Origin: Euzebya rosea
GTDB taxonomy: Bacteria; Actinomycetota; Nitriliruptoria; Euzebyales; Euzebyaceae
DNA: 64,000 bases
Reading direction: 5' to 3'
Assembly (NCBI RefSeq): GCF_003073135.1
Contig: NZ_PGDQ01000011.1
Location: 124,001-188,000, forward strand
Of the stretch, positions 24,303 through 25,085 are shown in pieces. The translations under genes were made by a program, and so were the position numbers. Below the pieces are notes generated by a model that saw only the letters and a program-made list of their open reading frames with translations, searched no databases and was not told where the DNA came from. Each line of letters opens with the position of its first letter. The first letter of the stretch is position 1.

Positions 24303-24410
24303 TCCCATCTCCTCGGTGGCGGCCGCTCGGACCCGGCGGGGGTCCGGGCGGTGTCGTCCGCTTGCGAAGTCGCGGTTGACCCGGCCGACGAACAGGAGGA
24401 CCGTGGCGAC

Positions 24411-25085
24411 GTGGACCCACGCGACCTCGCGGTGCGCAACGCCACCTACGCGGTGTTCGTCGAGCGCGGGTCAGCACCCACACCGGCTGACGTGGCCGAG
24501 GCCGTGGCCGGCCACTCCGTTGAGGAGGTCGAGGACGCCTGGCGCCGACTCCACGACGCCCACGCGCTGGTGCTGGTCGATCGGGACGGCCCGGCCGAGC
24601 TGCTGATGGCCAACCCGTTCGCGGCCCAGCCGACGAACTTCCGGGTGCGAGCCGACGACCGCTGGTGGGACGCCAACTGTGCGTGGGATGCCTTCGGGGT
24701 GTGCGCCGCGCTCGGGGTCGACGGCCGGATCGAGACGAGCTGCCCCGACTGCGGCGACGACCTGATCGTGGAGGTCCGCGACCAGCGCCCGGTCGACGAC
24801 GACATGCTGTTCCACTGCCTCGTGCCGGCCAGCCGGTGGTGGGACGACATCGCGTTCACCTGACTGACGATGGCCCTCTTCCGGTCGGAGGAGCACGTCA
24901 CCCGGTGGCTCGACGGTCGCCCGCGGGGCGCCACGACCAGCCTGTCGACCCTGTCGGCCCTGGCCCATGCGTGGTGGGGCAACCGGCTGTCGCCGGACTG
25001 GACCCCGCGCAGCCGTGACGAGGGCCAGGCGATCCTCGACCGCCTCGGCCTGACCGGCCCCCACTGGACGCTGCCGGGTGGCTGA
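24411..25085 (+). CDS. MerB-like (alkylmercury lyase family) protein with in-frame TGA at the catalytic cysteine; candidate selenoprotein
   Basis: GTG 24411 (AGGAGG 11 bases upstream) begins a 150-codon frame that stops at TGA 24861-24863 and then continues in the same frame for 73 sense codons to 25085. The total is 224 residues if TGA is decoded. The N-terminal helical part and 'MANPFAAQPTNFRV' fit the MerB family. 'NCAWDAFG' supplies C90 and D93, equivalent to Cys96 and Asp99 of characterised MerB. The TGA is codon 151, 61 residues on; MerB has its second catalytic Cys159 63 residues after Cys96. 'LFRSEEHV' follows, as expected after that cysteine. C111/C114 are also conserved-looking. Alternatives: a nonsense mutation, or reinitiation at ATG 24870. 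Confidence 0.75.
24876..24893 (+). promoter_or_regulatory. Candidate bacterial SECIS stem-loop
   Basis: CTCTTCC (24876-24882) pairs with GGAGGAG (24887-24893), seven pairs including one T-G wobble, around the four-base loop GGTC. Nineteen bases separate the TGA from the loop. The E. coli fdhF SECIS also presents GGUC in its apical loop at nearly this distance from its UGA. The element lies within coding sequence, as bacterial SECIS elements do. Not tested; a GC-rich gene will form some hairpins by chance. Confidence 0.5.

Follow-up and report, generated by a model that had tools for sequence, protein, structure and literature searches.

The selenoprotein SaoL, a member of the MerB superfamily, was reportedly defined by Haft and Gwadz in 2023. 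It is a MerB-like organometallic lyase (NF040728) and a component of the SAO operon (PMC13188914). Among the 119 prokaryotic selenoprotein families in the catalogue of May 2026, SaoL, with the motif CU, is the sole family with a MerB domain; proteins that have the same domain and different selenocysteine (Sec) motifs are placed in separate subfamilies (PMC13188914). Canonical MerB has been surveyed by means of the signature Cys96/Asp99/Cys117/Cys159, and its occurrence without MerA is common, with 895 such genomes (PMC8261052). MerB2, which has Ser99, indicates that the fold is able to shift its metal preference (PMC8261052). In computed pathways for MerB, Cys159 and Cys96 are displaced by thiols or thiolates, which thereby take Hg(II) away (PMC4525700).

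Here, we analysed a window of 64,000 nt from Euzebya rosea, in which a MerB-like gene is interrupted by a single in-frame TGA. By the standards of comparative analysis, it is close to certain that this TGA is decoded as Sec. The gene very probably encodes a 224-residue lyase of the MerB superfamily, in which UGA 151 would be read as Sec by means of SelB, tRNA-Sec and a downstream hairpin. Rather than standing alone, it belongs to a widespread Sec branch of the MerB superfamily that lies apart from canonical MerB and SaoL by the curated cut-offs.

Gene structure

The features of the gene are listed below.

24394..24399, plus strand: AGGAGG, resembling a ribosome-binding site and located before the GTG start; seen in the sequence itself
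24411..25085, plus strand: MerB-like gene for a predicted 224 residues including Sec151, running from the GTG start to the terminal TGA
24678..24680, plus strand: codon of C90 (= MerB Cys96, the first catalytic cysteine); the alignment column is Cys or Sec throughout
24687..24689, plus strand: codon of D93 (= MerB Asp99), in the motif NCAWD
24741..24752, plus strand: codons of C111-x-x-C114, invariant in a six-row alignment
24861..24863, plus strand: in-frame TGA, putative Sec codon 151 (= MerB Cys159); TGA in near homologues, Cys in distant homologues and MerB2
24876..24893, plus strand: SECIS-like mRNA hairpin CUCUUCC-GGUC-GGAGGAG; spacing and loop fixed in 27 genes, with paired changes and frozen codons

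The GTG start aligned with the starts of homologues. An earlier note, made from the window alone, had described a frame with C90, a lone TGA at codon 151 and 73 sense codons after it. This description was borne out when the frame was read again, and D93 was seen together with C90.

Family membership and active site

The gene is a member of the MerB superfamily with a MerB fold. The read-through protein matched PF03243 with 81.3 bits (E 7.7e-23; gathering cut-off, 27 bits) over residues 70-189, a match that spans the TGA. The part before the TGA scored 50.5 bits alone and the part after it 14.7 bits (E 0.03). The AlphaFold model was of middling confidence (pLDDT 66.9, pTM 0.64). Its Foldseek matches at E <= 0.001 were exclusively crystal structures of MerB and MerB2, which also made up the top 11 fold matches in the PDB.

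Spacing and alignment identified C90, D93 and C111 as the equivalents of Cys96, Asp99 and Cys117; C111 lies 21 residues past C90, matching the position of Cys117 past Cys96 in MerB. The Cys96 column contained Cys in every aligned row, or Sec in a branch with two TGAs that is described below. In a profile alignment, Sec151 stood opposite the second catalytic Cys of MerB2 (5c17). Ungapped matching around the site paired it with the leading Cys of a CC pair in a canonical MerB (L004) from the same taxonomic order. One row of the catalytic-column alignment (L047) was incomplete, and the subsequent alignment was made without L047 and L068. The distance from C90 to the TGA is 61 residues, compared with 63 in MerB, as the earlier note had stated, and the TGA does align with Cys159. 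The alignments showed a predicted active site of Cys90, Asp93 and Sec151, replacing Cys96, Asp99 and Cys159 of MerB.

Conservation of the TGA

Euzebya pacifica (G003) has a gene of 92% identity with TGA at the identical codon; this genome was named through its plasmid, which matched the 571,580-bp plasmid NZ_CP031166.1 at 100% over 6 kb. When 84,980 species genomes were scanned, five loci in MAGs (L030-L034) were obtained, each with TGA at the equivalent codon. Four of them were 59-63% identical (three of Actinomycetota, the other with the label Chloroflexi) and one was 31% identical. Among 396 sampled Actinomycetota genomes, 25, including the source genome, had relatives at E <= 1e-15, and about 20 of these had TGA at the Sec site. 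The site was Cys or missing in six of the matches (L048, L049, L059, L060, L061 and L067). In total, TGA was found in 27 of the 27 genes aligned at the Sec site, and TAA or TAG in none. Cys was found there in L048, L049, L035, L038, L037, L060, L061, MerB2 and canonical MerB (L004). The expectation that homologues would have Cys at this codon was therefore correct for the distant ones, whereas nearly all of the near ones carry TGA.

Relatives without TGA have Cys codons (TGC or TGT), which are only one base different. This might indicate that a TGC or TGG was misread as TGA in sequencing, or that the TGA is decoded as an ordinary amino acid, through reassignment or near-cognate decoding as Trp. 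However, independent assemblies keep the TGA. Because it is shared by an independent genome at 92% identity and by more than 20 other assemblies, a sequencing error was effectively excluded. The gene's own stop is also TGA, as are those of its relatives, and termination there is normal, which argues against reading as an ordinary residue. Such a reading would also leave the hairpin and the tRNA-Sec described below unexplained. We consider an error or an ordinary residue extremely improbable.

In a maximum-likelihood tree, several forks of which were weakly supported, the Cys rows L048/L049 and L035/L038 were nested among Sec rows, and the labels cost 4 changes. This suggests that Sec and Cys might have been exchanged repeatedly in the MerB-like branch. 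L048 (G072) and L049 (G086) have Cys in place of Sec and are without the FRSEEH/hairpin sequence, and their genomes retained selB; they provide a natural Sec/Cys comparison.

Coding constraint after the TGA

TGA is by default a stop codon, and standard annotation would end the protein there. As the MerB profile still recognises the N-terminal part by itself, the gene might encode a truncated MerB-like protein of 150 residues, or be a decaying pseudogene, with the downstream sequence untranslated. However, the constraint was alike on both sides of the TGA: dN/dS between the window gene and G003 was 0.10 before it and 0.15 after it (in the latter part, 15 changes were synonymous and 7 nonsynonymous), while over the 200 nt that follow the final stop similarity was much lower, with 131 of 225 alignment columns identical. 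Third-position GC was 0.93 before the TGA and 0.95 after it, and the first 12 codons past it had no synonymous changes. Judging from these substitutions, purifying selection acts equally on the sequences after and before the TGA. A true stop would also have to recur as TGA, never as TAA or TAG, in every one of the compared genes, and it would deprive every member of its second catalytic residue and of its C-terminal MerB region. A true stop thus seems highly improbable. Pseudogene, recoded TGA and sequencing error were all rejected by the conservation of the TGA and by dN/dS.

SECIS-like hairpin

The stem with a GGTC loop that the earlier note placed 19 bases past the TGA was found, with a stem of 7 bp, a GGUC loop, a spacing of 19 nt and a folding energy of -8.8 kcal/mol. 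Bacterial SECIS elements have been described as having a loop of 3-9 nt with G in the first two positions, a spacing of 16-37 nt, a stem of 4-16 bp and an MFE <= -7.5 (PMC13188914). The hairpin agrees with this description in loop, spacing, stem and energy. A generic bacterial SECIS model is unspecific here, as it fits 22% of all TGAs in the GC-rich window. A GGTC loop on a stem of at least 6 bp at +16..+31 was found at 4 of the 1138 TGAs of the window, the MerB-like TGA among them. The folding energy was not better than that of shuffled sequences (z = 0.37), and none of the Rfam SECIS families matched the hairpin. Because neither gave support, the SECIS claim rests on conservation and covariation.

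In 23 aligned sequences, the hairpin was paired in 93.8% of cells, compared with 44-63% when it was slid, and four of its seven pairs had compensatory changes on both sides. The loop codons were frozen: Arg158 was CGG and Ser159 was TCG in 27 of 27 genes. Comparatively, nearby arginines used CGG in 4 of 17 cases at Arg165 and 3 of 17 at Arg170. As the FRSEEH protein sequence is itself conserved, the covariation counts are to be taken jointly with the codon result. The spacing was fixed in nearly all relatives; the hairpin was absent from L056, which is a partial and disrupted sequence. Taken alone, the hairpin is weak evidence, but the conservation of both TGA and hairpin in relatives puts it far above chance.

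Selenocysteine machinery

The earlier note had proposed a search of the genome for selA, selB, selC (tRNA-Sec) and selD, and all four were present. selA scored 449 bits, selD 382 bits and selB, on the same contig as selA, 285-286 bits (cut-off 242). The tRNA-Sec scored 65 bits in Infernal and was called by ARAGORN as tRNA-SeC with the anticodon tca. Of the 29 genomes that carry relatives, 26 yielded selB and 25 tRNA-Sec; of the genomes where selB was missed, two were 68% and 73% complete and one was of unstated completeness. We had considered selB presence as proof of Sec decoding. This was downgraded, as 151 of 246 sampled Actinomycetota (61%) carry selB; because the gene is so common in the phylum, its presence is supportive rather than decisive. 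With the TGA and the hairpin conserved and the sel genes present, the selenoprotein candidate of the earlier note is supported.

In two MAGs that carry the MerB-like gene, the selD frames (L077 in G422 and L083 in G418) each have one internal TGA, which is consistent with a Sec-containing SelD.

Candidate double-Sec sister branch

In three genomes (G262, G361 and G253), a MerB domain carries one TGA at the position of Cys96 and another at that of Cys159, and is fused to a C-terminal AAA ATPase (PF00004). Their loci, each with two in-frame TGAs, are as follows.

L062:1501-3018: double-TGA MerB-ATPase
L063:1501-3006: double-TGA MerB-ATPase
L068 (G253:C75:932-1594): double-TGA MerB-ATPase

None of the curated families matched them at cut-off. 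A GGUC-loop hairpin of the same kind lies past the second TGA. At the first TGA, GGU lies near the hairpin apex in two of the three genes, and the fold is less clear in the third. In their sister L034, which is unfused, the first catalytic position is Cys and the second Sec. The double-TGA genes are candidate double selenoproteins.

G361, a single-contig genome, has a MerA gene about 3.3 kb from its double-Sec MerB-ATPase.

G361:C1:1403446-1404828: MerA gene, on the strand opposite to the MerB-ATPase
G361:C1:1408076-1408738: double-Sec MerB-ATPase, on the strand opposite to MerA

In G102, a frame for a MerA-like reductase (G102:C16:200235-201584; 375 bits) with one internal TGA directly follows a MerA gene over the cut-off (198818-200197). 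It possibly represents another Sec protein.

Neighbourhood and possible mechanism

By Pfam, the genes flanking the MerB-like gene encode a LuxR-type regulator, an FAD-dependent oxidoreductase, YCII, PhoX and a sigma factor, or are unmatched. None of the mer genes lies beside it in the window. No operon common to the neighbourhoods of homologues was evident, as judged from ORFs only outside the window. The source genome had no MerA over the cut-off (best score 364 bits, cut-off 454), and MerA over the cut-off was found in 4 of the 26 genomes searched. Because mer genes are not among the flanking genes, the natural substrate may be other than methylmercury.

By analogy with MerB, we infer that the Sec enzyme would cleave organomercurials. 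The cell's own SelB and tRNA-Sec would decode UGA 151 as Sec, directed by the hairpin 12-30 nt downstream of the UGA. The substrate would be an organometal, most likely an organomercurial. The chalcogen pair Cys90/Sec151 might hold its metal, and Asp93 might donate a proton, freeing the alkyl or aryl group as in MerB. Mercury binds selenolates more tightly than thiolates. The selenolate, being more acidic and of higher mercury affinity, would remain deprotonated and capture the substrate more quickly. With Sec at 151, the metal should be bound more quickly and may be let go more slowly. As no curated MerA was found in the genome, we propose that the product metal would pass to low-molecular-weight thiols or another acceptor.

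It is also possible that the protein, with its Sec and MerB fold, acts on another organometal or a metalloid, or serves in metal or redox sensing or binding, rather than as an organomercurial lyase. The low score against the curated MerB model (25.3 bits, cut-off 193), the missing mer neighbours and the scarcity of MerA, absent in canonical form from the source genome, are in line with such a role, as are the shiftable metal preference of MerB2 (Ser99) (PMC8261052) and the AAA ATPase fusion of the double-Sec relatives, which is not a mer feature. However, the protein retains the equivalents of Cys96, Asp99 and Cys117, and in place of Cys159 it would have the residue chemically closest to cysteine, which points to MerB-type chemistry, and MerB is itself common without MerA (PMC8261052). 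A role outside organomercurial cleavage thus seems rather unlikely, although it deserves consideration.

Considering the Sec branch as a whole, we put forward a broader reading tentatively, at somewhat less than even chances. In Actinomycetota and certain other bacteria, the genes might encode a large, as yet unlisted group of organometal lyases that depend on selenium, with Sec mostly at the second catalytic position and at both positions in the sub-branch fused to AAA ATPase. Such enzymes might be more reactive than MerB and act without MerA. Selenium-dependent breakdown of organomercury or other organometals might then have been missed by annotation, with the genes cut at the UGA.

As mercury prefers selenolates over thiolates, Sec in a mercury-binding pair offers a natural test of the effect of selenium: it could speed the cleavage of organomercury, or its cost could be slow release of the product. 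The branch also provides a clear Sec/Cys comparison within one fold. For the double-Sec ATPase fusions, it may be asked whether the enzyme is remodelled or unloaded at the expense of ATP. Mercury-resistance gene surveys that require Cys159, together with annotation that stops at TGA, would miss such genes or call them truncated.

Comparison with known systems

The MerB-like protein resembles SaoL in being a MerB-superfamily selenoprotein, and SaoL (NF040728) is its best NCBIfam match, with 41.7 bits (E 1.1e-10). As the cut-off is 140 bits and the CU motif is missing, identity with SaoL was rejected. Five relatives scored 26-55 bits against the same cut-off, and none of the other curated models was reached at cut-off by these or by the window protein. 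The residue preceding Sec in the 27 genes is T, N, S or L and never Cys. The SaoL profile matches stop at 104-142 of 159, short of Sec. The flanking genes showed no sign of a SAO operon. The MerB-like Sec family is absent from the selenoprotein lists compared, which include the 119-family catalogue. The subfamily rule of that catalogue (PMC13188914) would apply to the MerB-like Sec branch.

With the fdhF-type SECIS of Escherichia coli, the gene shares a UGA followed by a GGUC-capped stem. Counting from the U of UGA, the loop opens here at base 23, and in fdhF presumably one base off. The E. coli formate dehydrogenase belongs to another protein family, and the sequence of its hairpin stem is unlike that of the MerB-like gene.

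As the MerB census uses a signature that contains Cys159 (PMC8261052), Sec genes such as this one were probably left uncounted; the window protein has C90, D93 and C111 of the signature and Sec for Cys159. It scored 25.3 and 24.9 bits against NF009710 and NF033555, below the cut-offs of 193 and 200. The gene also differs from canonical MerB in being without adjoining mer genes, in a genome without MerA above the cut-off. With canonical MerB (PF03243; NF009710/NF033555; PDB 3F0O, 3F2F) and MerB2 (5C17) the protein has its fold in common, and the equivalents of Cys96, Asp99 and Cys117 are kept. Its catalytic pair is 61 rather than 63 residues apart, and it would have Sec in place of Cys159, together with an additional cysteine, C114.
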